A DNA stretch of 59,968 bases, taken from the NCBI GenBank assembly GCA_945787715.1, contig CALZJE010000067.1, forward strand, positions 1 through 59,968, read 5' to 3'. How positions within the stretch are numbered: the first letter of the stretch is position 1; each line of letters begins with the position of its first letter. Under the pieces are notes generated by a model, which saw only the letters and a list, made by a program, of their open reading frames with translations, made no database searches and was not told where the DNA came from. Positions 1 through 59,968 of the stretch are shown in pieces. Source of the DNA: an uncultured Ectothiorhodospiraceae bacterium. GTDB taxonomy: Bacteria; Pseudomonadota; Gammaproteobacteria; S012-40. The translations under genes were made by a program, and so were the position numbers.

Positions 1-94
1 CAACCCCGCGCTAGCCTGTATTAATGTATTGCTGGAAAATAAAGATGCATGAGCTATTCGCCCATGTCGCCCGCCGCAACACACGTGTGAAAAA

Positions 95-290
95 TATCCT
101 TGGGCCGGTCTCCGGACTCATGAGCATTTGGCTTTAGCACCTTCCCATGCAGTGCACAGTGGTATATTACTAAAGTTAGACTCAATTACCGTTGCGGGGG
201 CAGTGCTGGAATTACCGTATTAAAACTGTTCACCAGCTTCCCGTTTCACCCTCATATTAGTTGATATTTTGGGCACCCTTGGTCAGACGC
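95..290 (-). ncRNA. Cobalamin (AdoCbl) riboswitch, leftward
   Basis: Read on the minus strand, this has the ordered hallmarks of the cobalamin riboswitch: a GGGTGCCC entry, GAGGGTGAAACGGGAA, GCTGGTG, then CCAGCACTGCCCCCGCAACG, GGGAAGGTGCTAAAGCC, and finally the B12 box GAGTCCGGAGACCGGCC. Binding of adenosylcobalamin normally shuts off expression of the downstream gene. The downstream gene would be leftward and outside the window; a TonB-dependent B12 receptor (btuB) is the usual partner and fits the btuFCD operon that starts divergently at 505. No complete coding region is visible in bases 1-95. Boundaries are approximate, judged from the conserved boxes only. Confidence 0.95.
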
Positions 291-504
291 GTACTTTAAA
301 TCTGTCTCCAAGAAGTGTCAAGCAGTAGTTACTGTCTAATGTGTGATCAATTGAACTTCAACTTGACGATGATTATTTAAGTGAACAAATATCAGTAGAC
401 GATACTATGACAAATAATTTATTCCTGTTATTTTATAAGCACGGCTAATGCTAAAATTATCACAAGTAATAAATAATGCTCAACAAACCCCCTATACATC
501 AATA

Positions 505-2255: not shown

Positions 2256-2974
2256 TTACTATGACAGATCTATCTATCGCCGATAGAGTTAAGAATATCA
2301 GTTTAAATCTCAATAGTGGCGAAGTATTAGGAATAATCGGGCCTAATGGGGCAGGCAAATCGACGTTGCTAAAAGCTATTGCAGGTGTAGAAAAATTCGA
2401 TGGTAAATTGTTTATCAAACAGCAAGAATTTGCAGAATATGTTCCGAAAGAACGTGCACGAATTGTTGGTTTTTTACCTCAATCGGTCAATAGTGTTTGG
2501 TCTTTAAAAGTAGAAGATATTGTAACGCTAGGCCGCATTCCATGGGGCGATGAAAATAATCAGATTGTACAACAAGCTATGGATGAAGCGGCAATTTCTC
2601 AATTTTCTAAACGTGATATCAACGAGCTGTCCGGCGGTGAGCGCGCCAGAGTTTGGTTGGCACGTGTTTTAGCCGGCAAGCCACAAATTCTCTTGGCGGA
2701 TGAACCGATTTCCAGTCTTGATATTCACTATCAAGTCGAAGTCATGGAGTTGCTAAAATCTTTCGCACGTCGAGGAAACTCGGTGATGGTTGCAATCCAC
2801 GACCTAAGTTTGGCAGCACGGTATTGTGATCGACTTTGTTTAATAAAAAATGGGCAAGTTATAAAGCTTGGAGATCCGAGCGAAGTTTTATCTGAAACAC
2901 TATTGACAGATGCATTTCAAGTTCCTGTTTTTACCGACTTACAGGCAAATCCGCCGGTTATACTTCCTCGATAA
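2246..2974 (+). CDS. btuD: B12 ABC importer ATPase
   Basis: ABC ATPase of about 242 residues. Walker A GPNGAGKST is at about residues 32-40, the signature LSGGERARV near 127-135, Walker B ILLADEP near 149, and the switch histidine in AIHDLS near 184. It powers BtuC. Possible starts are ATG at 2228, 2246 or 2252; 2246 and 2252 both sit at the permease stop (2253-2255), giving the overlap usual in this family. The open frame upstream to 2126 is only permease sequence in another frame. A diverged copy of the last 24 codons reappears at 9385-9456. Confidence 0.9.
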   Translation: MDMITMTDLSIADRVKNISLNLNSGEVLGIIGPNGAGKSTLLKAIAGVEKFDGKLFIKQQEFAEYVPKERARIVGFLPQSVNSVWSLKVEDIVTLGRIPWGDENNQIVQQAMDEAAISQFSKRDINELSGGERARVWLARVLAGKPQILLADEPISSLDIHYQVEVMELLKSFARRGNSVMVAIHDLSLAARYCDRLCLIKNGQVIKLGDPSEVLSETLLTDAFQVPVFTDLQANPPVILPR

Positions 2975-3222: not shown

Positions 3223-6200
3223 TCACGGAAATAATATTGAACCTGAAGGGTTATCGTTAAATTGATTTGAGGTGGCAATATCCGAGTTAATCTGTGCATC
3301 AGAAGTGAGAACAATTCCCCAACCAGAACTGTGTTGTAGAATACTATGGATAATTGTTGCCTGAGTAGGACTGCCACCTGTAGATAACTTTATGTTTGAA
3401 CCTGTCGTAGACCCACCGCCGCCATATTCAACGGTCACATAATCCAGAATATTATCAGGATGGTTTGAGTTATAAAATTGAACACCTCGCCAAAACCCAT
3501 TGCTTTTTTGCTCTCCAGTAAAAAGTATCGGCAGGTCGCCGGTACCAATAGCGGATAAAGTGCCGGTAAATGCGATCTCCAATAATCCACCTGATCGGAA
3601 TTCCAATACCGCACCCGCTTCAATTGCAAGACCGGCATTCACATAATTACTACCGAGCGAATAGGAGGCATTGGTCGCAGGCCAGGTTTGGTTTTTGGTT
3701 ACGGTAGAGGAACTTACAATATGGATTAAGTCGACAGTATTGCCGGTGTAGTCTGATGCAGCATCTAAAGAGCCAGCGATATTTGCAGGCAATTGAACAG
3801 ATCCTAGTGCATTGCCAGTACTGATATTATTAACGAATTGATCGACCAAGGTATCATCTGAAAAGATTAAGCCAAACCCTAAACCATGTCTGAATGTACT
3901 GTTACTGATCTCAATTCGATTAAAGCTGCCACCATCATACATTCGCAAGTTGGCATCAGCATCAGTCGCACCACCATATTCAACGGTAACAAAATTGAGT
4001 TGATTATTGATATCATCTGAATTGTAAAATTCTAAACCATCCCAAAAACCCGGCGTTTTCTGCACCAGGTTTAATGATAAGATCAGCATCAACATAATTG
4101 CTACCAAGCAAATAAGGTGCATTGGTCGCAGGCCAGGTTTGGTTTCTGGTCAGGGTGGAATTTATCACATGGATGATATCAACAGCATTGCCAGTGTAGT
4201 CTGATGCAGCATCTAAAGAGCCAGCGATATTTGCGTGTAATCGAGCAGACCCTAGTGCATTACCAGTACTGATATTGTTGATGAATTGATCGACCAAGGT
4301 ATCTTCTGAAAAGATTAAACCGAAACCTAAACTATGTCTGAACGTACTGTTACTGATCTTAACCCGATTAATACTGCCACCATCATACATTCGCAAGTTG
4401 GCATCAGCATTAGTCGCACCACCATATTCAACGGTAACAAAATTGAGTTGATTATTGATATCATCTGAATTGTAAAATTCTAAACCATCCCAAAAACCCG
4501 GCGTTTTCTGAAAAACCCGGCGTTTTCTGTTCACCGGTAAATAGTATTGGTTGCTCAGCAGTGCCGATTGCAGATAAGGAACCAGTAGGCCCTACCTCCA
4601 ATTCGCCGCTGGATCTAAACATCAAAGTAGCACCAGGTTCAATGACAAGATCAGCATCAACATAATTGCTACCAAGTGAATAAGGTACATTGGTCGCAGG
4701 CCAGGATTGATTGGTAATAACCCGTGAATTTAAAATATTAATAACATCGATTGTGTTACCGGTATAATCGGAGCCATTATCTAATGAACCGACAGTGTCG
4801 GCGAGTAAAAGCACTGGTCCTTTTAAATTGCCTGTTATTACATTATTAGTGAACTGACCGAGCAATGTATTTTTTTTAAATTTTAAGCCGTAACCTAAAC
4901 TGTTTCGAAACGTGGATTGGTTAATTATAATTCTGTTAGCATCACCTGAATCGCGCATGTGTAAATTTGCATCATTTTCTGTGGCACCACCATATTCTAT
5001 GGTGACAAAATCCAAACGATTATTGAGCGAATTAGAAGAGCTAAATTCGATGCCATCCCAGTAACCGGGAGTAGCTTGTTCACTGGTGAATAAAATCGGC
5101 TGATCAGCTGTTCCATTTGCCGATAATACACCCGTTGATCCCACATCAATTTCACTGCCTGATGTAAAAATGAGTGTAACGCCGGGATTAATTGTCAGTG
5201 TACTATCGCTTACGGAAATTGTTCCATCCACGACAGTACATTCTAAGATAGTCATTGATTGCGAAACACTTTCATTTAATAATCCGTCACATGCTGCATC
5301 ATTAATTAATATTGTTGTTTTAGAAATGTCACCAGCAATTGCATTGTCAGAATAATTCAATAATGAAACGGTGAATGATTCATTGTCGTCGACAATGCTA
5401 TCGGGTTTGATGATGGCTCGAATTGTTCTGGGTGAATTATCATTTCCCCCCCAGATTAATCTGCCACTTATGGGATTATAATCCAGTTCAGATGTCGCTG
5501 TTCCATCAGCACTTGCATAATCTACGCTGATTGCGGTGGTAATGTCCCCCGTTCGATTGACAGTCATAACGGCTACTGCCTGCGTTTCAGTGACCTGCAG
5601 GCTAGATACCGAAAAAGATAATCGTGAATCACTTAACGGTTTAGACGTCGCACCATCCCCTGTTGTTGAACATATCTGTGTGCTGCGATCAGATTCATTA
5701 TCCGCTGCGTCAAGTGCTGTAACCTGATAACAATATTCCGTTGAAGCGAAAAAATTTGCATCATTGAACACTGTTGAAGTAACGGTAGCGATAAGTGAAT
5801 TTATATTGCTATTTATTCCCCGGTAAACATTAAAACTTCTTACGTCACTTATGTTATCATGAGTCCAGGCCAAGTTTATCAGGCCATTATTTTGTTCTAC
5901 AGCTTGCAACTGTGTTGGTATTGATGGCGATGAGTTGTCTACCGTATCATTTGTTTCTGGGCAATTTTCTGTCATAGTTGCTCTCGTACTCGAAATATTA
6001 CCTGCGCCATCTATAGCTTCAACTTCATAACAATATGCCGTGTTTGTTATCAAGCCGATATCAGAAAAAACGGGGTAAGGTGTGGTTGTTATCAAATTAT
6101 TATTTCGATAAACGTTATACGCTGATACATTAATATTATCCGTTGATGGATTCCATACGACTAATATTTCACTGATACTTACAGGAAATGCTCGTAACGC

Positions 6201-6911
6201 TTCTGGCGTAGAGGGAGGGGCTGTGTCAGGTAAAGTAAAGTCAGTATCTAATCCTACATCAGTCACTATTTCGTTTACTATATTTGTTTCGGGTTCGATT
6301 AGTAGGATGTTTATTGTGTTATTTACAATGACTATCTGACTGAAATCTAGAAAACGATCAAAACCAATACTGTTTGCATCAAATACAGATGAGATAAGAT
6401 CAATATCTTCTGGTAGACTAAACGCCAACAATGCGGGTGCAATTAATTTTTTGATAGTGGCTTTAATTGTATTTACTTCAGCCGCAGAAGGGAGTTTTGA
6501 TATTGCTGTATTACTGGCGAACTCAACATCTATGTCGAGCCCTTGAACTTTAAACCAGTTGCGAATAATTAAATCAGTGAAGGGATGTATGTTTGTCGTC
6601 CCGGATGTACTGGCAATACTGTATAACGATTGTCCTGTAGCAGCATCAACTTTCAATAATATCGGGCCATCATCAGTGACACTAATTGAAAATTTTCCGT
6701 TAATTGCAGTCGTCGTAGCAGCTTTTAAACCGCTTAGTGATTTAATGGCTAACGGAGCATTAGCAATTGCATTTCCAGTAGCAGCGGTTCCAGATATGTC
6801 GAGCCCTGAACCTTCAATACCGTCATCACCTGAGCAGCCGGTTATTAATAACACTGATAGCGCTAACAATATTGCTATTAACCAGCGCTTTTGTATAATT
6901 AATTTTTTCAT
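3223..6911 (-). pseudogene. Modular beta-helix lipoprotein, split by two frameshifts
   Basis: Read from 6911, the product begins with a lipoprotein signal (lipobox LLITGC, Cys26). It continues with a low-complexity alpha/beta region, two fibronectin-III domains (ending near residue 400), a Calx-beta domain and then tandem parallel-beta-helix units. Each unit carries ILFTGEQKTPGFWDGLEFYN, a DFVTVEYGGAT strand and a STFRHSLGFGL strand. The frame breaks near 4500 and again near 4062; each of the three frames stays open over its own stretch (6911-4461, 4534-4013, 4122-3223), and the last frame ends naturally. The first break is a 19-bp tandem duplication. The second is a deletion of about 101 bp relative to the preceding unit. 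Presumably an outer-membrane-anchored surface protein when intact. The start overlaps the DUF6502 stop by ATGA. It may be a recent pseudogene or a phase-variable gene. Confidence 0.8.
4492..4529 (-). repeat. 19-bp tandem duplication causing a frameshift
   Basis: The 19-base unit AAAAACCCGGCGTTTTCTG (plus-strand reading) occurs twice back to back, at 4492-4510 and 4511-4529. Removing one copy restores the reading GEQKTPGFWDG expected from the other beta-helix units. A third copy of the unit, at 4044-4062, marks the second frameshift. Confidence 0.95.
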
Positions 6912-7729
6912 GATTCACCCTTGTCAGTTTCATTTTTGAAATAATAAATACCCAGGCCGACTCTTGATTTGGTTTCGCCTGATTGTGTTTGTGTAGTTTT
7001 TTTCTTTTCTGCAAGCCAATGATTTAATTCCAAAATCATTTCCAGTGATTTTTCGTGACACAATATTTTAAATTCTTTATCAATGCTTTCAGGTATATCA
7101 ATGTACGATACCTGTCGTTGAAAATATCGATCGTCAGGTTCGCTAGAGAGGTTATGAACAATCGTGCCAAGCATGTCGCCCGCGTGTTTCGAAACCATTT
7201 CAATGATTTCTGATTCACTGTTAATGGGTACATAACCATGGTGCTTAAGTTTGACAGTTTGCTTGTCTATTAAGGAAACAGCCTCGACTCGAAGTAATTC
7301 ATCTAATATTGCCCGTGCAGTAATGCCACCACTATAACGAGTAACAAGCTCATTAAAGCTATTAACTTCGCCTCTTAGCAGTAATTCGCGAGGTTGGTTG
7401 TTGTCATCGATAAAATCCGGGTCTTGCAACCAGCCGCCAATGACTCGTGTTGCACGATTTAACGGGCCTTTAGTAATGGGTTCCTCGTCTTCCGTTTGCC
7501 TGGCAAGGCGTATAACTTCCGGTCGACTTAAGCCGGTAATCACCGACACGCGGGAATTGGTTTTTTTTCTATTCGGAATCGTAAAATATTTGAATGCCAT
7601 TTTGACATATGACCTCCGAGCCAATTCTGAGAATTCGCTATGTGAAATATTGTACTTGAGCATTAAGTGAGCCAATGGTTCCAAAATTTTGCTAATGGCC
7701 CTGCTTAATAATTGTTTATCGTTTTTCAT
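6908..7729 (-). CDS. DUF6502 family protein, probable DNA-binding regulator
   Basis: 273 residues resembling the DUF6502 family. The N-terminal half has a helical region and a helix-turn-helix-like stretch (SRVSVITGLSRPEVIRLAR, about residues 62-80). No membrane segment or signal peptide is present, so it should be cytoplasmic. Its stop overlaps the start of the beta-helix lipoprotein by ATGA, so the two are cotranscribed. Two copies of a GTAA-N6-TTAC palindrome lie directly upstream, suggesting autoregulation. The DNA-binding role is inferred from the HTH-like stretch and the operator-like repeats; no enzymatic motif is visible. Confidence 0.75.
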   Translation of the reverse strand: MKNDKQLLSRAISKILEPLAHLMLKYNISHSEFSELARRSYVKMAFKYFTIPNRKKTNSRVSVITGLSRPEVIRLARQTEDEEPITKGPLNRATRVIGGWLQDPDFIDDNNQPRELLLRGEVNSFNELVTRYSGGITARAILDELLRVEAVSLIDKQTVKLKHHGYVPINSESEIIEMVSKHAGDMLGTIVHNLSSEPDDRYFQRQVSYIDIPESIDKEFKILCHEKSLEMILELNHWLAEKKKTTQTQSGETKSRVGLGIYYFKNETDKGES

Positions 7730-7733
7730 AAAC

Positions 7734-7747
7734 GTAAATATAGTTAC
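7734..7747. promoter_or_regulatory. Operator-like palindrome, proximal copy
   Basis: GTAAATATAGTTAC, an inverted repeat GTAA-N6-TTAC, lies five bases upstream of the DUF6502 start codon (7729). A near-identical copy is at 7775-7788, with 41 bases between starts, about four helical turns. The placement fits a repressor site, probably for the DUF6502 protein itself. Confidence 0.6.
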
Positions 7748-7774
7748 ATAATTTCAATATTTCAAGCAGAAAAT

Positions 7775-7788
7775 GTAAATATAATTAC
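7775..7788. promoter_or_regulatory. Operator-like palindrome, distal copy
   Basis: GTAAATATAATTAC, differing from the proximal copy by one base in the spacer. The rest of the 7789-7980 interval is AT-rich with no gene that can be supported. Confidence 0.6.
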
Positions 7789-7995
7789 GTTATAAAAGCA
7801 GGATTCAAATGGTAATTTTTGCGTGAGCAAGCATAAGATTCCGGTTAAACAATAATCGCTTATTCCCAGTATGATTAGTTTAGACACATATTTTACGCAT
7901 AATTGGGTCACCCATTAGTCAGCCTCGGTCAAGAGGGAATAGTAATTTGTGAACACAAAATGTTATTTTTTTTTATAAATGTCTGAGAAGGGTGT

Positions 7996-8057
7996 CTGGC
8001 CTGCGTAATTGTATTAATAACCTTTTTTTGTTATAAAAATACAATAACACAGGCCAG
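7996..8057. repeat. REP-like hairpin, copy A
   Basis: The 20-base arms CTGGCCTGCGTAATTGTATT (7996-8015) and AATACAATAACACAGGCCAG (8038-8057) are complementary at 18 of 20 positions around a 22-base centre. Closely related copies are at 9302-9363 (complete) and 15536-15555 (right arm only), with a degenerate one at 56411-56473 next to a RAYT transposase remnant. The right arm is the left edge of the duplicated kinase segment. Confidence 0.8.
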
Positions 8058-8142
8058 GTACACTAACACACTAACATGAATAGATATAATACATGTAATA
8101 ACCTAAATTAAAACGGATCAACTATTCTTTTAAGGTTAAAAC

Positions 8143-9312
8143 TTAATTTGGTAAAATAAAACTCACTGTAGTTCCAATCTGTTCTTTACTGTTTATTTGA
8201 AGCGTACCACCGTGAGCTTCAGCAATCATTTTGCAAAGATATAATCCCAAACCATATCCACCCGTCTCACGTTGCCGCGAAGGATCAACACGGTAAAATG
8301 GTTCGGTTAATGATGGAATAAGCTTTTCTTCAATGCCAATGCCAAAATCTTGAACAGTCAGTACGATATTTTCCTTCTCAGATTTAAGCGTAATAATCGG
8401 TGGTGGATTGGCAATCGGAGTATGTTTCAGCGCATTATCTACCAGATTTTTAATCAGTAGTTTTATGCGAGGAACATCAATATTCATTTCGTATGGAATG
8501 TCATGAATATTGATAACAAGTGCTCTTGTGGAAAAATAATTCTCTAGTGTTTTTTTTGCAACAATTGAAATACTTGCCTTTGTCCTATTTAGGATGTGAT
8601 GACGGGTGCTAAGCCTTTCTGTTTCTAGTATCTCTTCAATCAATGCATCAATTTCATTTAATTCTTCTTCAATTGTTTTTGAATGCGAGCTTTCTGGTAA
8701 TAATGCGGCAGCGACTTTTGCTCTCGTAACAGGTGAACGTAATTCATGACTAATTGCCAATAATAGCTGACGCTTAGCTTCAAGCATTTGTTGTATGTCG
8801 TCAGCCATCTGGTTAATGCTATTTGCCAGGCTTCCAAGTTCATCGTTTCGATTAATGTTTATTCTATGCTCTAGTTCTCCGTTACCGATACGTTTTACCC
8901 CTGATTCCAGTGTTTTAATAGGCAGAAAAAGTTTTCGCGTAATCACATAAAATAGTGCTAATAAAATAATAATAAGAAATATAGGTAGCGCATGCCGACG
9001 GTGAATATGATCTTTGGGGTGAGGAATGGAAAAGGCGAGGGTATGATCTTTGTGGTTTACGACTAATATCTCTAGGTCTTCAAGTTCTCCGGTGGAATAT
9101 GTTAAACCATTTTGATTAAACTGCTTATAATATTTAATTTTTGATAATTCGATCAGGTTTTCACTTGTCGACCATGTATCATTACCTTTAAAAATCGAGA
9201 TATCGATTGAAAGTTTTTTAGCGATCTCAAGTGCCTTATCTTTATTGGGTGGTGTTCCAATATCACTTTGAACATATTCGAGATACTGTAGGGAAAGGAG
9301 CCTGGCCTGCAT
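8143..9312 (-). pseudogene. Truncated duplicate of the CpxA-like sensor kinase
   Basis: Nearly identical in sequence to the complete kinase at 15643-16935 from its residue 48 or so to the end. It keeps most of the periplasmic part, the second membrane helix (about RRHALPIFLIIILLALFYVI), HAMP, the phosphoacceptor motif SHELRSP and the ATPase domain ending GYGLGLYLCKMIAEAHGG. The signal anchor/first membrane helix is missing. The apparent start (9312) is read out of REP-like copy B, so it is not a genuine N-terminus. No response regulator is adjacent. DNA similarity to the complete locus runs 8038-9290 versus 15536-16789, bounded by REP-like hairpins. Probably non-functional as a sensor. Confidence 0.85.
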
Positions 9313-9363
9313 AATTGTATTATCAATCTTCGTTTGTTATAAAAATACAATAGCACAGACCAA
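9302..9363. repeat. REP-like hairpin, copy B
   Basis: Arms CTGGCCTGCATAATTGTATT (9302-9321) and AATACAATAGCACAGACCAA (9344-9363), same orientation and spacing as copy A. It abuts the broken 5' end of the truncated kinase on one side and the btuD fragment on the other. Confidence 0.8.
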
Positions 9364-9384
9364 GCACAGAATTACACGTCGAGG

Positions 9385-9456
9385 TTGGCAGACGCATTTC
9401 ATGTTCCTGTCTTTATCGATTTACAGGCAAATCTACCGGTTATACTTCCAATGTAA
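9385..9456 (+). pseudogene. Duplicated 3' end of btuD
   Basis: Translates as LADAFHVPVFIDLQANLPVI and on to a TAA stop, closely matching the last 24 codons of btuD (2903-2974) with several substitutions. Nothing upstream of 9385 resembles the rest of an ATPase. It is a fragment left by an old duplication or rearrangement. A run of nine G (9515-9523) lies in the non-coding stretch that follows. Confidence 0.8.
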
Positions 9457-9575
9457 GCGTAGACCTGGATAATTCCTTAAATTACAGAAAATGTATTGAG
9501 AAATAATTTTTAAAGGGGGGGGGAGGCAGAATCCTTTAGCGAAGTTTCTCCTAATCACCAAGAATAACAATTAAA

Positions 9576-10154
9576 TTAGGAGCCACCGCGCACTAACCGA
9601 ACATAATAACCGGAGTAGCTGCGATGATTGACATCTACAAAACCATCGTATATATTCACAATCCACGCCATGCTAGAAAAGCTGGGGTGCTTCGAGGATG
9701 AAGTTGACCAATAATACAAATTAAAGGCGGTGTTAGGAAACACGTTCAGGTTTATCGCCGGGTTAAAACAAGCTTCTTCCACCAGTGAGAGCAGTTCGCT
9801 AATATTCGGTATACGCCAGTCGGTGTAACCCATATTATCTGGTAAATCGCCAACACTATTTATGTCTAGAACTTGTTGCAGAGCCCCCCACCAAGTAAAC
9901 GTGCTTGCGCTTCCTGTGGCACAATCTGCATCTCTTTGGCCGATAGAGCAGCGCTGCCACATCAAACCAGTATATAAATCCGTGACAGTACTATCACCAT
10001 TATTCACAAATCGAATATCTGGCGTAGTTGGCGTAACTCCCGAGGAACAGGTTTGCTCAGCAACTAAAAAACCTGGCCATAAGGCTAAAAAGATTATAAA
10101 TAGAGCAATACTTTGCTTTATCTTAATTATATTAACGCGACTAGAAATTTGCAT
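9576..10154 (-). CDS. Secreted DUF1566 (Lcl C-terminal) domain protein
   Basis: 192 residues. The N-terminus has a signal peptide (ALFIIFLALWPGFLVAEQ). The rest is one DUF1566 domain: VTDLYTGLMWQRC, TDWRIPNISELLSLVE, YYWSTSS and the terminal YYVRLVRGG, all typical of this family. The domain is found in Legionella Lcl and in many secreted or surface proteins of aquatic bacteria. It follows the 1501-residue lipoprotein gene in the same direction after 157 bases, and that protein ends in the same domain, so the pair is probably functionally linked. Molecular function is unknown. Confidence 0.85.
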   Translation of the reverse strand: MQISSRVNIIKIKQSIALFIIFLALWPGFLVAEQTCSSGVTPTTPDIRFVNNGDSTVTDLYTGLMWQRCSIGQRDADCATGSASTFTWWGALQQVLDINSVGDLPDNMGYTDWRIPNISELLSLVEEACFNPAINLNVFPNTAFNLYYWSTSSSKHPSFSSMAWIVNIYDGFVDVNHRSYSGYYVRLVRGGS

Positions 10155-10311
10155 TAAATATCTCCGAAAATAAATGTTGGTGTATTAAAGACCGTTATAC
10201 CAATTAGAGTGGTTTCGCGCAGCCTATCCACTATTAATCATTGCACTATAAAGGGACAAAATCACAATGCTGCGCAATGGTGTACAAACGTCATGTGATA
10301 ACAGGATGCTG

Positions 10312-13300
10312 TTATAATCCCCCACTGCGTACTAACCGCACAAAGTGACCAGAACTACGAGCAGCCTCGCTATGAATACCATACGTAAAACCCATGGTCC
10401 ATGCACTGTCTGAATTTATGGCGCCCGGTGAGGATGACCAATAAGTGTTAACACGACTATTAGGAAAATAGGCAGTATTTATTACTGGAAAAACAATATT
10501 TAGATTAATCAGACTGCGTAATTCTGTTCGGCTGGGTAAACGCCAATCCTTAAAACCGCATATTCCTTGAATATTCACCTGAGCAACAAATTTTTCTGTA
10601 TCACAATTTGTAGTGTCAAAACAATGACCGCCATTGGGTGTACCTAATGCACCATTATCATTATTTCCGGATGAGTTATACCAGCTGTAGATCCAGCCCG
10701 AATCTCTTAAATCACCACTACCGCTTGCTTGTTTTACCTCCCATGTCAGCCCAGTGACATTATCCCTAACGCAGTCCCAACTAGGGGCGTTTGCGACAAG
10801 GTCATTCCCACTACTATCCAATTTTGTGTAACTAAAGCCAGCATGACCATCGCTGTCATCATTGTGCGTCACATCTCGTCCATGGCTGCAATCTTGTTGA
10901 CTAATGATCTCACCACTGCAATCCGTATTAATGAGTCCTGAATCGCTGGCACCATAAGTGACACCAGTATCGTTAAGAGGAAATAACGGAACAATCACTG
11001 TTCGCACCGATTTTTCAGCACTAGGAAAAGATTCCAGGTTGTTTGCCAATGCAGTAACAACAAAATGATAATTCACCCATGGCTTTAAATTCGACAATAC
11101 TAATCCGCTGCTTCGATTAAGCTCTAATATCCCCCCCATCGCCGCATAATTACCCGGTGTTACCCCACTTTGCCGAGCATAATAAACGTTGTATGAAGTT
11201 GCACCGGCGACATCTGCCCAACTTAAAGTGACCTGTCTATCACTTTTTAACAACGAAAGAGCTGGTGCAGATGGCGCATCGTCGTTTCGAACAGTGATAA
11301 TACTTTGAGTATCACTAATCGTCGCACCAGTCGCATTACTCAAATTAATTAAAAACTGCTCATCATTTTCAGCAATCGCATCATCTTTGATGGTGAAGTT
11401 TATAGTTTCACTGATCTCACCCGGGGTAAAACTTAAGGTACCACTCTTTGCGATATAATCACTCTCTGCAATGGCGCTACTATTCGCTGTGGTATAACCG
11501 ACCTGGACAGTCTGAATACTGGCTTTATGCAGGGTAACCTTTACTGTGGCTATCGCATCTGATTCATCTTTGCTTACATCTTCGATACTCAAGCTCGGAA
11601 AATCATCGTCGTCGGTAATTACCACTTGCACATTTGGATTAAACAATGTGGCGCCCTGGATTTTTCTCAGGTTAAGAGTGAAAGTATCATCCGCTTCGTA
11701 AATTTCGTCATTTTTGATAATTAGGTTAATCATTTTTTCTGTTTCACCAATATTAAAGGTGATGCTTCCGGTTTGTGCGTCATAATCATCGGCTTCGGTT
11801 GCGGATCCATTCACAGTTGCAAAGTCGAGTGTCACCGGTGACCCACTGGGAGAATCTAGCGACAGTATTAAAGTGGCATTTGTGCTTTCCTCATTAACAC
11901 TGATATTTTCCGAACTGACGACTGGAAGTGCCGTGGTAAATCCTGAAGTAAACACGGTTGCGAGTGATGCACCATTACTGTCTGTGATATCGGTACTGAG
12001 TTCTATCCTGTATAAGACATTATTTATCAAGTTATTGCTTGGGTTAAAACTAGCGGTTTTGGTGCTTTGATCATAGCTTACCGAACCCAGAACAACACTG
12101 TCGTCGGGACGTAAAACACGAAACGTACTACTGTTAATACTGGCGGCTGCCATATTTTTATCAAAGGTAACATCAACCTTATGTAAATTAGTGTCAACAT
12201 TTTCCTGATTATTCTCGGGGGAGGTTACCGTCACCATTGGTGGTACAATAGATGGCTCATCATCGTCAATAATAGTGATATTAACGCTGCTTTGACTGCC
12301 TAACGTAGCACCAGAAACATTGCTTAGCAAAACACTAAATGACTCGTTGTTTGGACCTTCGTACATATAGTCATTATTGATTATTATATCGATATTGGTC
12401 TGAGTTTCACCTGCAAGTAGGGTTACCAGCTGATTATTTAATGTTATGTAATCATTGGATATAGCAGAACCAGTTTCAGTCGTGACATTTACAGAAATGT
12501 TGTTTTGTAAGTCAGCTTTATCTAATTTGATGTTAAGCGTAGCAACCGCATCTGTTTCCGAGACAGATACATTAGCATTGACAAAGTTAATGACGGGTAA
12601 CACTTCATCGATATTAAGTACTGTTATTTGTAGTATTTGATGCGCCGTAATATCGCCATCACTGACTTGTATCTCGAGTTGATAAACATTATCGGTATCA
12701 GCATCGGCAGGAGATTCGAAATCCGGTGGATTTTTAAATATTAAAACACCACTACTGTTAAGCGTAAATATACTTGAATCAGCTCCTCCAATAATTAGGA
12801 AGTTAATATTGTTGCTATCCATCCCACGAGCTTGGAGGGTGGTGATTGCACTGTTATTTTCATGGACAAAATATTGAGTTGCTATTGAAGATTGTGGTTG
12901 TGTACCAATCTGGTTGCTCTCCAACGATTCTAACTCACCGGCCAAGGCGGTAACGACAAAAAAGTAGTCTGAATCATTGGTTAAACCTGGTATGGTTATT
13001 TCACTTTTTTTATCCGCCAATCTCACACCGCCCAACGATTCATAACTAACAGGTGTTACACCACTTTGTTCAGCAAAATAGATATTGTATGATGTTGCAC
13101 CGGTGACATCCGCCCAGAATAAAGTGACTTGGCCATCACCATTTAACAACGAAAGTACCGGTGCGGATGGTGAATCGTCATTTCGAATAGTGACAAGGCT
13201 TTCGCCATCGTTAATCATTGCACCAACAATTCCGTTTAAATTTATCAAAAATTGCTCATCAGTTTCAGCAATCGCATCATCAGTGATGTCAATATTGATG

Positions 13301-14817
13301 GTTTCACTGACTTTACCCGGCGTAAAACTTAAGCTTCCACTTTTATTCGCGTAATCGGTTCCTGCTATAGCGTTATCATTTGCAGTGGCATAGTTAACCT
13401 GAACTGGTTGAACACTAGCTGTGTTCAGCGTAACTCTGACATTGGCGACTGTTTTTGATTCATTGACGATAACGTCTTCAACACTCAAGCCCGGTAAATC
13501 GTCAGTAGCAATGGTGACAGTTGCGCTACTTTGACTACCTAGTGTGGCACCAGTGACTCTGCTTAGCAATACTGTAAAGAATTCAGTGTTAGTGCCTTCG
13601 TATAATTCATCATTATTGATTGTTATATCGAAACTGAGTTGCGTCTCTCCAGCGGGTAGGATTATCGTTTGATCTTTCAATGCTTCATAATCACTGGATG
13701 ATGCCGTGCCGAGCACAGTATTAACACTCGCGGTAATGTTGTTCTGTATATTAGCTTTATCTAATGCAATGTTCAGTGTAGCAATCCCATCTTTTTCAGA
13801 GACAGATACATTGGTTTGGGAAAAATTAATAACGGGCAGTACTTCATCAATATTCAGTACAGTAATTTGCAGTGTTTGCTGCGCTTTTTTATCACCATCA
13901 TTGACTTCTATTTCCAGTTGATAAATATTGTCTGCATCAGCGTCACCAGGGGATTCGAAATCCGGTGGATTTAGAAAGATTAAGGCACCATTCCGATTAA
14001 GCGCAAACAGATTGACATCTGCACCACCAATGATGAGAAAAGCTAATTCGCTACTATCCGCATCACTGGCTTGAATGGTAGTGATTGCAGTACTGTTTTC
14101 AACAACACTAAAGTCAGTTGATGAAATAAGGACTGGCGCTTGATTTTCAACAAAAGGTTCGGAAACAGTGGCAGAACTGGTAGTGGAATAAGCGCTATAC
14201 TGATCACCTCTTTTTGCAGCCAACCAATAATAATAGCTTTGATTAGGTATCACTACATCATCCCTATACGGCGATGTAACATTATTAATGACTGTTGCAG
14301 TATTTATATCCAGCACATCGCTGGTGCTCCGGTAAAGCGTGTAGCTATCTAAAGCTTCAACAGATTCCCAGCTGACTAGAACAAAGTTCTTATCAGTGAC
14401 TACACTTGTTAGATTACTGGGCTCCATTGGTGGCGCAGTGAAAGTCAGCTGGTTTGAATCTGGACTTTCGTTACCAGACCAATTGGATCTCAGTTTAACA
14501 ACGTATTGCTGGTGCGTGTTTTCAGCAACGATAATATACGGTGGTTTATTTAAAATAATTTCTGATGTTTTACTGGCACCAAAGGTATTTAATTTGGATA
14601 AATACAATGTGTAGTTTTGTGCATTACTTTGTTCCTCCCAATTTAGAATCAACTGGTTTAAATTGTTTTTCTCCAGAACTATATTAGGTGCAGTTGTTGG
14701 TGCCTGTTGTGTTGGGTGGGAAATATCCACATCACCAGTAAGACCACCGCCACAGGCTTGTAATAGAATCACACTGATAAGAGCGATTATTCGTTGTATT
14801 TTTTGCATTATTTTCAT
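10312..14817 (-). CDS. Giant modular surface lipoprotein (FN3, cadherin-like, Calx-beta, DUF1566)
   Basis: 1501 residues. A signal ending in the lipobox ALISVILLQAC (Cys22) indicates a lipoprotein. Then come two fibronectin-III domains, a cadherin-like domain (FSVVENSTAITTIQASDADS), two Calx-beta domains, FN3, a second cadherin-like/Calx-beta set, a bacterial Ig-like (Big_5) domain around PENNQENVDTNLHKVDVTFD, two more Calx-beta domains and FN3. A C-terminal DUF1566 domain ends FVRLVRSGGL. The cadherin/Calx-beta/FN3 block is internally duplicated, so it grew by tandem duplication. Calx-beta and cadherin-like domains often bind Ca2+. Likely an outer-membrane-anchored adhesin or matrix protein. 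Two CRP-like sites lie 53-99 bases upstream. The frame is intact throughout, unlike the related lipoprotein at 3223-6911. Confidence 0.85.
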   Translation of the reverse strand: MKIMQKIQRIIALISVILLQACGGGLTGDVDISHPTQQAPTTAPNIVLEKNNLNQLILNWEEQSNAQNYTLYLSKLNTFGASKTSEIILNKPPYIIVAENTHQQYVVKLRSNWSGNESPDSNQLTFTAPPMEPSNLTSVVTDKNFVLVSWESVEALDSYTLYRSTSDVLDINTATVINNVTSPYRDDVVIPNQSYYYWLAAKRGDQYSAYSTTSSATVSEPFVENQAPVLISSTDFSVVENSTAITTIQASDADSSELAFLIIGGADVNLFALNRNGALIFLNPPDFESPGDADADNIYQLEIEVNDGDKKAQQTLQITVLNIDEVLPVINFSQTNVSVSEKDGIATLNIALDKANIQNNITASVNTVLGTASSSDYEALKDQTIILPAGETQLSFDITINNDELYEGTNTEFFTVLLSRVTGATLGSQSSATVTIATDDLPGLSVEDVIVNESKTVANVRVTLNTASVQPVQVNYATANDNAIAGTDYANKSGSLSFTPGKVSETINIDITDDAIAETDEQFLINLNGIVGAMINDGESLVTIRNDDSPSAPVLSLLNGDGQVTLFWADVTGATSYNIYFAEQSGVTPVSYESLGGVRLADKKSEITIPGLTNDSDYFFVVTALAGELESLESNQIGTQPQSSIATQYFVHENNSAITTLQARGMDSNNINFLIIGGADSSIFTLNSSGVLIFKNPPDFESPADADTDNVYQLEIQVSDGDITAHQILQITVLNIDEVLPVINFVNANVSVSETDAVATLNIKLDKADLQNNISVNVTTETGSAISNDYITLNNQLVTLLAGETQTNIDIIINNDYMYEGPNNESFSVLLSNVSGATLGSQSSVNITIIDDDEPSIVPPMVTVTSPENNQENVDTNLHKVDVTFDKNMAAASINSSTFRVLRPDDSVVLGSVSYDQSTKTASFNPSNNLINNVLYRIELSTDITDSNGASLATVFTSGFTTALPVVSSENISVNEESTNATLILSLDSPSGSPVTLDFATVNGSATEADDYDAQTGSITFNIGETEKMINLIIKNDEIYEADDTFTLNLRKIQGATLFNPNVQVVITDDDDFPSLSIEDVSKDESDAIATVKVTLHKASIQTVQVGYTTANSSAIAESDYIAKSGTLSFTPGEISETINFTIKDDAIAENDEQFLINLSNATGATISDTQSIITVRNDDAPSAPALSLLKSDRQVTLSWADVAGATSYNVYYARQSGVTPGNYAAMGGILELNRSSGLVLSNLKPWVNYHFVVTALANNLESFPSAEKSVRTVIVPLFPLNDTGVTYGASDSGLINTDCSGEIISQQDCSHGRDVTHNDDSDGHAGFSYTKLDSSGNDLVANAPSWDCVRDNVTGLTWEVKQASGSGDLRDSGWIYSWYNSSGNNDNGALGTPNGGHCFDTTNCDTEKFVAQVNIQGICGFKDWRLPSRTELRSLINLNIVFPVINTAYFPNSRVNTYWSSSPGAINSDSAWTMGFTYGIHSEAARSSGHFVRLVRSGGL

Positions 14818-14869
14818 CGATTAAGTTTCAGGCTTTTTATTATTATAATTTTGAAGAGTTTTTGTGAGC

Positions 14870-14885
14870 TGTGATCTATTTCACA
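14870..14885. promoter_or_regulatory. CRP-like site, proximal
   Basis: TGTGATCTATTTCACA is a perfect TGTGA-N6-TCACA core, centred about 60 bases before the start codon of the giant lipoprotein gene. The site motif is seen directly; binding by CRP is inferred from the E. coli consensus. Confidence 0.7.
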
Positions 14886-14900
14886 CGTTGCATTGAAAAC

Positions 14901-14916
14901 CGTGATCTAATTCACG
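14901..14916. promoter_or_regulatory. CRP-like site, distal
   Basis: CGTGATCTAATTCACG is a symmetric variant of the CRP core with one change per half-site. Its centre is 31 bases from that of the proximal site, three helical turns, so two dimers would lie on the same face of the DNA. Confidence 0.6.
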
Positions 14917-15079
14917 CTCCAATTTACGTTTGATGTGATCAGCAAAATAATGGTGTTGTTTTCGAAATTGCGCGAATTGTAATCTAAAAACCGCTCGAAT
15001 CCAAAGTACTATTTTAAGCCACTCTCTACTCGTCAATTTTTAGTTTACATAAATGAAAGCTATCTTCAAATAGCTAGTC

Positions 15080-15127
15080 GAATCAAGTACTTGTACTTTT
15101 ACTTGTGGATCAACTGATTATTCTAGG
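15080..15127. repeat. 48-bp dispersed repeat, copy 1
   Basis: Aligns without gaps to 45490-45537 at 41 of 48 positions; the core GTGGATCAACTGATT is identical. Both copies are intergenic. No internal hairpin is obvious. The surrounding non-coding stretch 14917-15298 has no supportable gene. Confidence 0.65.
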
Positions 15128-15298
15128 CAAAAGCAATATAGCTTAAATATTGAGCGCCATGGTGGCTAGAAAGAAATGGATTCACAATTATACTCGAGTT
15201 GGCCTGTTCAATATGAAGATGATCTACAAATAAAGTCGATAGATTTTCATTGAATCATGCAGCCAAATCCCATTCCCCCACTTTTGCTAAACTCATTA

Positions 15299-15523
15299 TT
15301 ACGCATAGATACCAGATTCTCTTAATTCAATTTGAACTTTAATAACCAAAACAAAAACCCATGCTCGCTGTAACTCAATCCATTTTGTTTTTGTCCCCGA
15401 TTCATCGTCATGTTTTCGACCTAAAAATCTACCATGTACTACCTTCATTCTAAATACCGTGTCAATACTTGGCGTTTTTTTTGGCGGTGCCGTGCGTTTG
15501 TTACTATATAAATGGCTTGCCAT
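15299..15523 (-). pseudogene. C-terminal fragment of an IS4-type transposase
   Basis: About 74 codons with the stretch APPKKTPSIDTVFRM, then GRFLGRKHDDESGTKTKWIE and LQRAWVFVL. This resembles the conserved tail of IS4-family transposases (GGFLGRKxDGEPGxKTLWxGLQR). The preceding catalytic part is absent. The fragment ends a dozen bases from the half REP-like element at 15536, so the element insertion or a recombination there may have removed the rest. Confidence 0.65.
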
Positions 15524-15535
15524 TCCCCAGTTTCA

Positions 15536-15555
15536 AATACAATAGCACAGGCCAG
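15536..15555. repeat. REP-like element, copy C (right arm only)
   Basis: AATACAATAGCACAGGCCAG equals the right arm of copies A and B. The left arm is missing and replaced by the IS4-type fragment. Similarity to the 8038-9290 region begins exactly here and continues through the kinase. Confidence 0.75.
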
Positions 15556-15642
15556 GCACGCTAACATACATTAACATGGCTAAATATAATACATGGAACA
15601 ACCTAATTTAAAACGGATTACCTGATCTTTTAAGGTTCAAAC

Positions 15643-16935
15643 TTAATTCGGTAAAATAAAACTCACTGTAGTTCCAATCTGTTCTTTGCTGTTTATTTGA
15701 AGCTTACCACCGTGAGCTTCAGCAATCATTTTGCAAAGATATAATCCCAAACCATATCCACCTGTCTCACGTTGTCGCGAAGGATCAACACGGTAAAATG
15801 GTTCGGTTAATGATGGAATAAGCTTTTCTTCAATGCCAATGCCAAAATCCTGAACAGTCAGTATGATATTTTCCTTCTCAGATTTAAGCGTAATAATAGG
15901 TGGTGGATTTGCAATCGGAGTATGTTTCAGTGCATTATCTACCAGATTTTTAATCAATAGTTTTATGCGAGGAACATCAATATTCATTTCGTATGGAATG
16001 TCATGAATATTGATAATAAGTGCTCTTGTGGAAAAATAACTCTCAAGTGTTTTTTTTGCAACAGTTGAAATGTTTGCCTTTGTCTTATTTAGGATGTGAT
16101 GCCGTGTGCTAAGCCTTTCTGTTTCTAGTATCTCTTCAATTAATGCATCAATTTCATTTAATTCTTCTTCAATTGTTTTTGAATGCGAGCTTTCTGGTAA
16201 TAATGCGGCAGCGACTTTTGCTCTTGTAACAGGAGAACGTAATTCATGACTAATTGCCAATAATAGCTGACGCTTAGCTTCAAGCATTTGTTGTATGTCA
16301 TCAGTCATCTGGTTAATGCTATTTGCCAGGCTTCCAAGTTCATCGTTTCGATTAATATTTATTCTATGCTCTAGTTCTCCATTACCAATACGTTTTACCC
16401 CTGATTCTAGTGTTTTAATGGGCAGAAAAAGTTTTCGCGTAATCACATAAAATAGTGCTAATAAAATGATGATAAGAAATATAGGTAGCGCATGCCTACG
16501 GTGAATATGATCTTTGGGGTGAGGAATGGAAAAGGCGAGGGTATGATCTGCGTGGTTTACGACTAATATCTCTAGGTCTTCAAGTTCTCCGGTGGAATAT
16601 TTTAACCCATTTTGACTAAACTGCTTGTAATACTTAATTTTTGATAATTCGATCAGGTTTTCACTTGTCGACCAGGTATCAGTACCTTTAAAAATCGAGA
16701 TATCGATTGAAAGTTTTTTAGCGATCTCATGTGCCTTATCTTTATTGGGTGGTGTTCCAATATCACTTTGAACATATTCGAGATACTGTAGTAGGTGAGG
16801 GCGGATATTATCTTTGAAGTTGTTTTTTAAATTATAAGCGATATTCCCGCCAACAATTAGAACTAATAATATTGAGAATAATATATAAAGCCAAAGGAAT
16901 TTGGTGGATAGAGAACTCTTTGTTTTATGCAGCAT
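15643..16935 (-). CDS. CpxA-like envelope-stress sensor histidine kinase
   Basis: 430 residues. Membrane helix 1 is at about 13-34, a periplasmic sensor domain of about 110 residues follows, helix 2 is at about 149-169, then HAMP, a HisKA domain with phosphoacceptor His230 (SHELRSP) and an HATPase domain with DNALKH, DFGIGI and GYGLGLYL. It would autophosphorylate and pass phosphate to the adjacent regulator. The ATG at 16935 lies one base after the regulator stop and starts directly before helix 1; an upstream extension to 16959 is rejected because it overlaps the regulator. CpxA-like identity rests on the operon with a CpxP/Spy-type protein. Confidence 0.85.
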   Translation of the reverse strand: MLHKTKSSLSTKFLWLYILFSILLVLIVGGNIAYNLKNNFKDNIRPHLLQYLEYVQSDIGTPPNKDKAHEIAKKLSIDISIFKGTDTWSTSENLIELSKIKYYKQFSQNGLKYSTGELEDLEILVVNHADHTLAFSIPHPKDHIHRRHALPIFLIIILLALFYVITRKLFLPIKTLESGVKRIGNGELEHRININRNDELGSLANSINQMTDDIQQMLEAKRQLLLAISHELRSPVTRAKVAAALLPESSHSKTIEEELNEIDALIEEILETERLSTRHHILNKTKANISTVAKKTLESYFSTRALIINIHDIPYEMNIDVPRIKLLIKNLVDNALKHTPIANPPPIITLKSEKENIILTVQDFGIGIEEKLIPSLTEPFYRVDPSRQRETGGYGLGLYLCKMIAEAHGGKLQINSKEQIGTTVSFILPN

Positions 16936-16936
16936 G

Positions 16937-17626
16937 TTAATCACTTTCACTAATAGCACCTACCAGACAGTAACCAGTGCCACGAATGGTCTTAATAAAA
17001 GTATAGGGTTTTAACTTATGTCGTAATCGGCTAATTAATATGTCAATAGATCTCGAAAAGAGTTCTGTGTCTATGCCTTTCAAGGTATTCAGTATCTCGT
17101 CACGATTAAACGTTTTATTGGGATGTGTTGCCAATAAGAGTAAACAATTATATTCCATAGTGGAGAGATTAATGATTTCATCATTGAGCGTGGCCTGGCG
17201 TAAGTCAGTATCAATTGATAGTTCTCTGATTTTTATTTGCGTAGGATTTTTGGGCAGGCTCTTAATTTTTGTACGTTTAATAATTCGTTGGATACGTGCG
17301 ACTAATTCACGAGGTTCAAAAGGTTTAGCCAGGTAGTCGTCTGCTCCTAATTCTATACCAATAATTCGATCCATAACTTCTCCGCGCGCTGTCAACATGA
17401 AAATAGGAATCTCACTATTTTTTCGAATCTGCTTACAAACCTCAAAACCATCCATTTCTGGCAGCATGATATCCAATATCACCAAATCATACTGACCATG
17501 CTCCAGTTTTTCAAAGCCATCACTGGGTGATAATGCATGATCAAGTTGAATTGAATGTTGATTGAAAAATTCAGTCAATAAATTGCCTAAACGTTGATCA
17601 TCATCAATTAGCAGAAGTTTAGTCAT
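16937..17626 (-). CDS. CpxR-like OmpR-family response regulator
   Basis: 229 residues. A receiver domain has acidic residues in LLIDDD, phosphoacceptor Asp52 (VILDIMLP), the conserved Thr in MLTA and Lys in LAKPFEP. A C-terminal winged-helix domain is recognised by LSTMEYNCLLLLATHPNKTF, and by DILISRLRHKL with FIKTIRGTGYCLV at the end. It should bind direct repeats in promoters; the three-fold GTAAC box at 18269-18293 upstream of this operon is the obvious target. It is one base from the kinase and about 100 bases after the CpxP-like gene. Confidence 0.88.
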   Translation of the reverse strand: MTKLLLIDDDQRLGNLLTEFFNQHSIQLDHALSPSDGFEKLEHGQYDLVILDIMLPEMDGFEVCKQIRKNSEIPIFMLTARGEVMDRIIGIELGADDYLAKPFEPRELVARIQRIIKRTKIKSLPKNPTQIKIRELSIDTDLRQATLNDEIINLSTMEYNCLLLLATHPNKTFNRDEILNTLKGIDTELFSRSIDILISRLRHKLKPYTFIKTIRGTGYCLVGAISESD

Positions 17627-25015: not shown

Positions 25016-25159
25016 TACAAACTTCCTAGATACACTGTAGCCTAAAGTGCTTGCCGAATTGGCTTAAGTACGTCCACGCATCATTTTCATATTTATTTGT
25101 TTTGAAATTGAATTAAAGGGCTAAGTAACCATTTTAACCACCTTATATACTAACGAGTT

Positions 25160-25281
25160 GGAAATAAAGGATACCTGCTGAACTATACTGTTGGCAGCAT
25201 GGATGCTGCCGTCAAGCTTATAAGGACATATTTACAGCGTGTATAACAGCGTGTATAATTCAGCAGGTATCCTTTATTTCC
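25160..25281. mobile_element. MITE-like palindromic element, 122 bp
   Basis: Perfect 23-bp terminal inverted repeats: GGAAATAAAGGATACCTGCT at the left end and its complement at the right, both extending three bases further. Inside are a smaller hairpin GGCAGCATGGATGCTGCC (25193-25210) and a 12-bp tandem repeat ACAGCGTGTATA twice (25234-25257). The element sits between the czcI-like gene and czcC. It encodes nothing. The inner sequence resembles repeated intergenic palindromes of other gammaproteobacteria (recollection, not checked). Confidence 0.75.
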
Positions 25282-25357
25282 GATTTATTAATAACTGTTG
25301 TTTCAACGGTTATCGGTTGGTTTGAAGATTTAGAAAGACTTGTCAAAAGGAACAACA

Positions 25358-45489: not shown

Positions 45490-45537
45490 GAATCAAGTGA
45501 TTGTACTATAAATCGTGGATCAACTGATTTTTCTAGG
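45490..45537. repeat. 48-bp dispersed repeat, copy 2
   Basis: Gap-free match to 15080-15127 at 41 of 48 positions. It lies between the terminator and the RRM gene, ending 34 bases before the start codon, so it may contribute promoter or leader sequence here. Confidence 0.65.
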
Positions 45538-56306: not shown

Positions 56307-56410
56307 GTTTCTTTTTCCCTGTATCATATTGAATAAATATTTGCTGAATTCAAAAATATCTATTCTTTCGATTATAGACTCTTAATGGAAAGATGCCAGA
56401 GGAAAGGTGT

Positions 56411-56473
56411 CTAGCTTGCATAAGGGTATTATTAACCTTCCCTTGTTAGAAAAGCGCAATTGATCATGCCAGG
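56411..56473. repeat. Degenerate REP-like element, copy D
   Basis: Left arm CTAGCTTGCATAAGGGTATT aligns with the left arm of copies A and B; the central ATTAACCTTCCCTTGTTAGA and a decayed right arm (CATGCCAGG) follow. It lies directly before the RAYT transposase remnant, the usual place for a cognate REP. Confidence 0.6.
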
Positions 56474-56491
56474 TACTCATTTTGTTGCTTG

Positions 56492-56820
56492 ATGGATAAC
56501 TATTGTCACTTACGGATAGAAACACCTGAAGGTAACTTGGCCTTGGGTATGCGGCAACTCAATGGAGATTACTCTCAAAGGTTCAATCGTAAACATGGCC
56601 GTGTAGGAAATGTCTTCCAGGGGCGTTTTAAAGTGTGATTATCGAGAAGTAGTCCTATGTTATAGAGTTAGCAATTTATATTGATTTGAATCCAGTTCGA
56701 GCAAGAATGGTGCGAAAGGCAAAAAATTGGCCATGGAGTGGTTATAGAGCAACTATTGGAGCTGCTGATCTCAAAAGAGGTTTAAATGTGGATTGGATCT
56801 TGTCACAATTTGCGAAGCGC
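56492..56820 (+). pseudogene. REP-associated tyrosine transposase (RAYT) remnant
   Basis: The first frame reads MDNYCHLRIETPEGNLALGM, then RQLNGDYSQRFNRKHGRVGN and VFQGRFK before a stop, matching the conserved middle of RAYT/IS200-like Y1 transposases (including the His of the HUH-like region, here YCHLRIE). A second frame continues ELAIYIDLNPVRARMVRKAK and NWPWSGYRATIGAA, another conserved RAYT stretch, after a frameshift and an internal stop. Both the N-terminus and C-terminus are missing. Non-functional. The flanking interval to 56971 has no other gene. Confidence 0.85.
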
Positions 56821-59345: not shown

Positions 59346-59792
59346 ATGAATAATGAGATCAATTTTCAGAATAACCCTCTACATGGTGTTAGCTTGAAAA
59401 GCTTGTTGACTGAAATAATAAATCACTACGGTTTTGAGATTCTCTATGCTTATTTAAATATCAATTGTTTTAAGACCAATCCGAACATTGACTCCAGCTT
59501 GAAATTTCTAAAAAAAACGGATTGGGCGCGTGAAAAAGTTGAAGTTTTCTATTTGTATGAGTTTAAAAACTTACCTAGAGCGTCTTCCGAACAGTTTTCA
59601 TTGCCTCCCAGGGAGCGGATTATTCCAGAAGGTCAAACACCAGGTGAGCCTAAGGCATTAAGTTTAGAGGATGTTGAGCGGTTACGCGAAAAGCGTGCAA
59701 GTAAAATAGCTGCACGAAACCCGAGAGATAGGCATCGCTCTGTCGAGAGTATCGATCCATGGGCGAATTATAAAAGTAAATCTAAGCGCTAA
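59346..59792 (+). CDS. VF530 (DUF2132) family DNA-binding protein
   Basis: About 148 residues. The N-terminal 75 residues are the VF530 domain: [40 protein letters not shown] and [16 protein letters not shown]. The C-terminal half is an extra basic region with [39 protein letters not shown] and [10 protein letters not shown], probably disordered and nucleic-acid binding. Typical VF530 proteins lack this tail. In-frame ATGs at 59334 and 59280 exist; 59346 begins closest to the domain. The last 176 bases of the window show no gene. Confidence 0.85.
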
Positions 59793-59968
59793 AAAAAATG
59801 GGTATCTGAGGTCTATGGGAATATGTACGACCAGACTCGGAATACATTTAAAACATCAGACGTTTAGTTAATGAGTGTAACTGTTGGGATTGGAGTGTGT
59901 GGGCTGATGTTTCATAACACTTAACATTAGCAGACATCGATTAAAATCTAATGTTTAGGCTGGGGTTC

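Follow-up and report, generated by a model that had tools for sequence, protein, structure and literature searches.

The window analysed here (59,968 nucleotides) is contig C67 of a draft genome of 4.4 Mb in 227 contigs, assigned to an uncultured Ectothiorhodospiraceae bacterium. It carries ABC transporter genes, a run of large repeat-bearing proteins and a full-length sensor histidine kinase gene next to an OmpR-type response regulator, and part of this kinase gene occurs a second time in the window between two small hairpins (Table 1).

A kinase segment is duplicated between two hairpins

The duplicated segment (K') comprises kinase codons 57-438 and the downstream spacer, and is bounded by hairpin A on the left and hairpin B on the right, both in the same orientation. 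The initial annotation had described 8038-9290 as a near copy of 15536-16789, with its left edge at the right arm of hairpin A, its right edge beside hairpin B and the same arm marking the start of similarity at the parental locus; local alignment of both loci bears this out, to within 1-2 bp. On the right, similarity stops sharply: the final 57 bp are identical, the copy then passes into GGAAAGGAGCCTGGCC (hairpin B), 1 bp from the GAAAG tag of that hairpin, and in the source the kinase gene runs on. A kinase copy that is whole but for an inserted hairpin B was rejected, as no kinase sequence resumes right of B, and so was tandem duplication of a 7.5-kb unit, as 9368-15534 has no match in the window right of 16791. 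On the left, similarity ends inside a hairpin, of which the source has the right arm alone, AAATACAATAGCACAGGCCAGGCAC (half hairpin P). Because the source keeps only this arm, the left edge of similarity corresponds to a break in the source hairpin, and the copied unit itself may have ended elsewhere. The DNA outside both A and B is likewise duplicated, but from other loci.

Table 1. Coordinates of features in the window (C followed by a number denotes another contig of the same genome)
Feature	Position	Strand	Remarks
Cobalamin riboswitch	86-295	-	upstream of and opposite to the ABC transporter genes
B12/iron-type ABC transporter genes	448-2974
ABC transporter ATPase gene	2126-2974
Source of the 65-bp copy	2903-2967	+	within the ATPase gene
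Large proteins with Calx-beta, fn3 and Lcl_C domains and internal repeats	3223-14817		related DNA on C20, C74, C138
Duplicated host segment left of A	7905-7984	+	87% identical to C139:4828-4910 / C6:73873-73955; ends 3 bp before hairpin A
Hairpin A	7987-8061	+	complete; 5' tag GAAGG
K'	8037-9291	+	95.2% copy of 15535-16791 over 1257 columns
Kinase copy frame	8143-9312	-	389 aa
Hairpin B	9293-9367	+	complete, decayed; 5' tag GAAAG
65-bp copy	9385-9449	+	88% to 3' end of ABC-ATPase gene; 18 bp right of hairpin B
63-bp dispersed repeat	15065-15127		again at 45490-45537 and on C72, C7, C14
Half hairpin P	15535-15559	+	right arm only; downstream of parental kinase
Parental copy of K'	15535-16791	+
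Full-length sensor histidine kinase (parent)	15643-16959	-	438 aa
OmpR-type response regulator	16937-17626	-	parental locus only
MITE-like repeat	25144-25303		41-nt inverted arms; copies on C53, C4 (two), C34, C9, C10
Third full hairpin	56402-56476	+	decayed
Decayed Y1_Tnp (RAYT-like) fragment	56477-56740	+	frameshifts; starts mid-domain at the edge of hairpin 56402-56476
620-bp segment	59201-59817		92% identical to C53:46-664, near contig end; part recurs beside C53:9695-9789
Relative of the segment flush beside hairpin C53:9695-9789	59656-59817	+	94%

The kinase copy diverged under constraint

The copy had been labelled a sensor-kinase fragment. It is indeed truncated at its 5' end, lacking some 56 N-terminal residues of the parent (the first TM segment) and starting at an ATG inside hairpin B, but it retains an intact, constrained frame of 389 codons in which HAMP, HisKA and HATPase_c domains, those of a sensor histidine kinase, are all present. 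Over 381 codons, parent and copy differ by 28 synonymous and 13 nonsynonymous codon changes without a stop (dN 0.016, dS 0.12, dN/dS ~0.13). At 69 positions 13 outgroup proteins are invariant; the copy agrees with them at every one and the parent at all but one. Under neutrality, the copy branch would be expected to gain about 45 amino-acid changes and two stops; none of 2000 simulations matched the observed pair, so the divergence built up under constraint. The noncoding 3' part of K' is only ~85% identical, in line with dS. Such constraint is unexpected for a dead filler fragment, and the codon comparison indicates that the kinase copy is not inert: either the truncated kinase would be in use, or the truncation would be recent (a longer copy later trimmed to hairpin B), or the piece would derive from a diverged relative. 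The best named relatives of the kinase are mostly gammaproteobacterial metagenome assemblies, and the locus was not carried by any close relative found.

Trimming could account for the kinase if an older full-length paralogue with a downstream hairpin had been maintained under selection and later deleted back to hairpin B, making the hairpins deletion endpoints and not sites of gain. The dN/dS ratio, the open frame, the 69 matched positions and the noncoding identity all fit such a history; it is the main alternative for the kinase, and the constraint data favour it. However, neither the response regulator nor the kinase 5' end leaves any trace near the copy, and the other duplicated pieces found beside hairpins (65-477 bp, see below) would each need two independent deletions. 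We regard this history as unlikely.

A dispersed hairpin family

The hairpins are 75-nt imperfect palindromes dispersed in the genome (consensus GAAAGGTGCCTGGCCTGCATAATTGTATTATTAACCTTCCTTTGTTATAAAAATGCAATAGCGCAGGCCAGGCAC, arms of ~25 bp). Built with 17 base pairs, a covariance model recovers ~25 strong full sites genome-wide; three half copies occur as well. Good copies have fold z-scores of -4.8 and -5.6, hairpin A folding much better than its own shuffles (z -4.75); hairpin B scores -1.05. Only one side of the hairpin is tagged: about ten copies are preceded by a GAAAG-like sequence. A and B are 83% identical, and they are not clearly sister copies, more bootstraps placing A nearer the C171 copy; their sisterhood proved uninformative as a test of circle integration. 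Among the copies compared, AAATACAATA in the right arm is common to A, B and P alone. No member of the family turned up in the 36 relatives searched, bar one short 25-bp match, or in 273 other genomes of the class. Two contig pairs end and overlap at hairpins (C33/C159 and C43/C171), which is an assembly effect. Weaker covariance-model matches (C13:7095, C42:28218, C32:35306, C47:2809 and C46:1385) have their own close pairs at 90-92% identity and look like another repeat (hairpin) family.

The arms form terminal inverted repeats of ~25 bp, as in MITEs, and the flanks of 22 copies hold no consistent target-site duplication by eye. An integron cassette (attC) was rejected, since on inspection the aligned hairpins have no RYYYAAC / GTTRRRY boxes at their ends. 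The genome contains integron integrase genes (C66:20803-21741, C34:34642-35583, and on C220 and C184), with no convincing hairpin or attC-like match within ~1.5 kb of them.

Duplicated host DNA ends flush with hairpins across the genome

The association of hairpins with duplicated DNA was measured by an all-versus-all comparison of 2.08 Mb (47% of the genome) in stretches with the hairpins masked. A duplicated segment starts or ends within 25 bp of 12 of the 59 hairpin edges, or 10 of 59 in the final count, which excludes the C43/C171 contig overlap; at these ten the distance is ~20 bp or less and the segments are low-copy host DNA. The ten are not all independent because the kinase pair supplies three of them. 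About one flush edge is expected at random intergenic positions, and when the hairpin positions were shifted along the same contigs (318 shifts) the mean was 0.25 and the maximum 3. Copies of other dispersed repeats (62 of them) gave 1 flush edge of 124 (Fisher p 4e-5 against the hairpins), and with the kinase left out the contrast holds at 7/54 versus 1/124 (p 0.001). Eight distinct low-copy duplications lie 2-20 bp from a hairpin edge and none at 26-100 bp: the kinase (1231 bp), C82 (477), C53 (261), C123 (109), A-left (83), C34 (80), C139 (74) and B-right (65). Within 0-25 bp of a hairpin edge there are 8.7 duplications per kb, and beyond 3 kb the value has dropped to 0.014 per kb. A contig overlap accounts for two of the 13 flush rows counted, and absolute densities are inflated because hairpin-bearing contigs were deliberately chosen for the 2.08 Mb. 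The hairpin family thus bounds duplicated host DNA here and elsewhere, far above chance. The expectation that other copies would flank duplicated host DNA is upheld in the part of the genome searched, but A-B is the only pair found to enclose a wholly duplicated segment; on C53 and C82, the DNA lying between paired hairpins is not duplicated over its whole length.

Five flush edges are on the 5'-tag side (A-left, B-left, C34, C123, C53) and four on the 3' side (A-right, B-right, C139, C82), so the association has no polarity. The partner copies have no hairpin, with the kinase source (P) as sole exception, and by eye the partner ends have no motif in common. Flush pieces other than the kinase are 65-477 bp long with unrelated sequence past both ends, and several flush pieces are gene 3' ends (the kinase, the ABC ATPase, a short gene on C53). 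Of the 15-20 bp gaps between hairpin and piece, several (C34, C53, C82) contain the hairpin foot in tandem repeat, as slippage would leave.

Hairpin feet as candidate breakpoints

A transposase could in principle produce such junctions: a RAYT/HUH-type enzyme would nick at the 5' tag, mobilise hairpin and neighbouring gene 3' end together via a circle or rolling circle, and insert both beside another hairpin, which extends to a host gene the BIME model of Nunvar et al. (2010). K' is built like the rayt 3' ends between REPs in BIMEs: the 3' part of a gene runs through its stop codon and a short spacer to a hairpin, with a second hairpin in direct orientation. The genome has Y1_Tnp genes, and both the one-sided tag and its position 1 bp from the right junction of K' agree with nicking there. 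However, RAYT-linked REPs are defined by a GT(A/G)G head before the palindrome (PMC2817692), and the consensus here starts GAAAGGTGCCTGGCC without such a head. The copy number falls short of the more than 100 usual for RAYT-linked REPs, none of the eight Y1_Tnp matches in the genome has a family hairpin within 1.2 kb and no inverted hairpin pair flanks a rayt gene over that distance; the hairpin at 56402-56476 adjoins only the decayed Y1 fragment that starts at 56477. The model as read also predicts polarity, against the duplications on both sides, and most partner copies are hairpin-free. Movement by a RAYT-like transposase, as the initial annotation had proposed, is thus not supported, and we judge it unlikely.

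Unequal recombination between dispersed hairpins had been offered as the alternative. Ectopic homologous exchange, for example a circle with a hairpin and the kinase segment integrating at a resident hairpin, yields hairpin-segment-hairpin in direct orientation, as observed, and would suit the right-arm sequence peculiar to A, B and P. REP-REP exchange at duplication join points has reportedly been seen in Salmonella (Shyamala et al., 1990). Homologous exchange is possible at the kinase, whose source has a hairpin arm, but the arm shared at P is only 25 bp and A and B are not clearly sisters; nor can it be general, as all other partners are hairpin-free and the wider pattern would stay unexplained. 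Overall, we think this route very unlikely.

Because the association is symmetric and flush and the partners are hairpin-free, we tentatively prefer a model in which the DNA breaks or replication stalls at the hairpin foot and another locus is copied. Hairpin feet might then be recurrent break and template-switch points, and the hairpins would mark rearrangement breakpoints. When a strand broke or replication stalled at a foot, repair would copy unrelated host DNA, which would end up joined flush to the hairpin, its far end being arbitrary. In the kinase case, synthesis or strand exchange at a hairpin arm would continue into the matching arm P; from there it would copy ~1.23 kb of the kinase 3' region before rejoining at a hairpin's 5' foot, so that the kinase copy came to lie between hairpins A and B. 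The duplication with its edges, the flush association, its use of both sides and the hairpin-free partners are observed, whereas the break or template-switch step, its direction and the participation of A, B and P in one event are inferred. That the family captures host DNA on both flanks, taking in copies of gene pieces from elsewhere in the chromosome, and at least once gave rise to a new, selected gene, a truncated sensor kinase with its start codon in a hairpin, seems rather unlikely to us.

Discussion

Eukaryotic transposons are well known to capture gene fragments beside a repeat; for small bacterial palindromes such capture has, to our knowledge, hardly been described, and we know of no enzyme for hairpin-flush capture in bacteria. 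If host DNA is recurrently copied in at hairpin feet, bacteria would have in this a way to form truncated paralogues and chimeric genes. As a simple test, the flush statistic can be run on complete genomes for REPs, MITEs and further families of palindromes.

Several known systems resemble this one in part. In eukaryotes, gene fragments are captured by Helitrons or Pack-type elements and filler DNA arises from template switching: there too, pieces of host genes lie flush to a repeat end with an arbitrary far end, but here the repeat is a bacterial 75-nt hairpin without polarity. In enterobacteria, REP-REP recombination occurs at the join points of chromosomal duplications, which likewise places palindromic repeats at duplication junctions; in contrast, partners here are mostly hairpin-free, and the pieces are dispersed and span 65 bp-1.25 kb where the enterobacterial duplications are large and tandem. 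TIMEs are described as miniature elements that build mosaic non-autonomous transposons (PMC4133298); our locus shares with these two miniature repeats around host DNA, and it differs in having no consistent target-site duplication by eye and, at most sites, a hairpin on one side only. Close in anatomy are the BIMEs in which rayt 3' ends are captured between REPs (Nunvar et al., 2010; PMC2817692). The hairpins here are 75 nt long without a GT(A/G)G head, number ~25 and have no association with Y1 genes, but in both cases dispersed intergenic palindromes occur in a genome with Y1 transposase genes, and a gene 3' end with the spacer to its downstream palindrome is trapped between palindromes; what is trapped here is an unrelated host kinase gene, together with pieces of other host genes on both sides of the hairpins.
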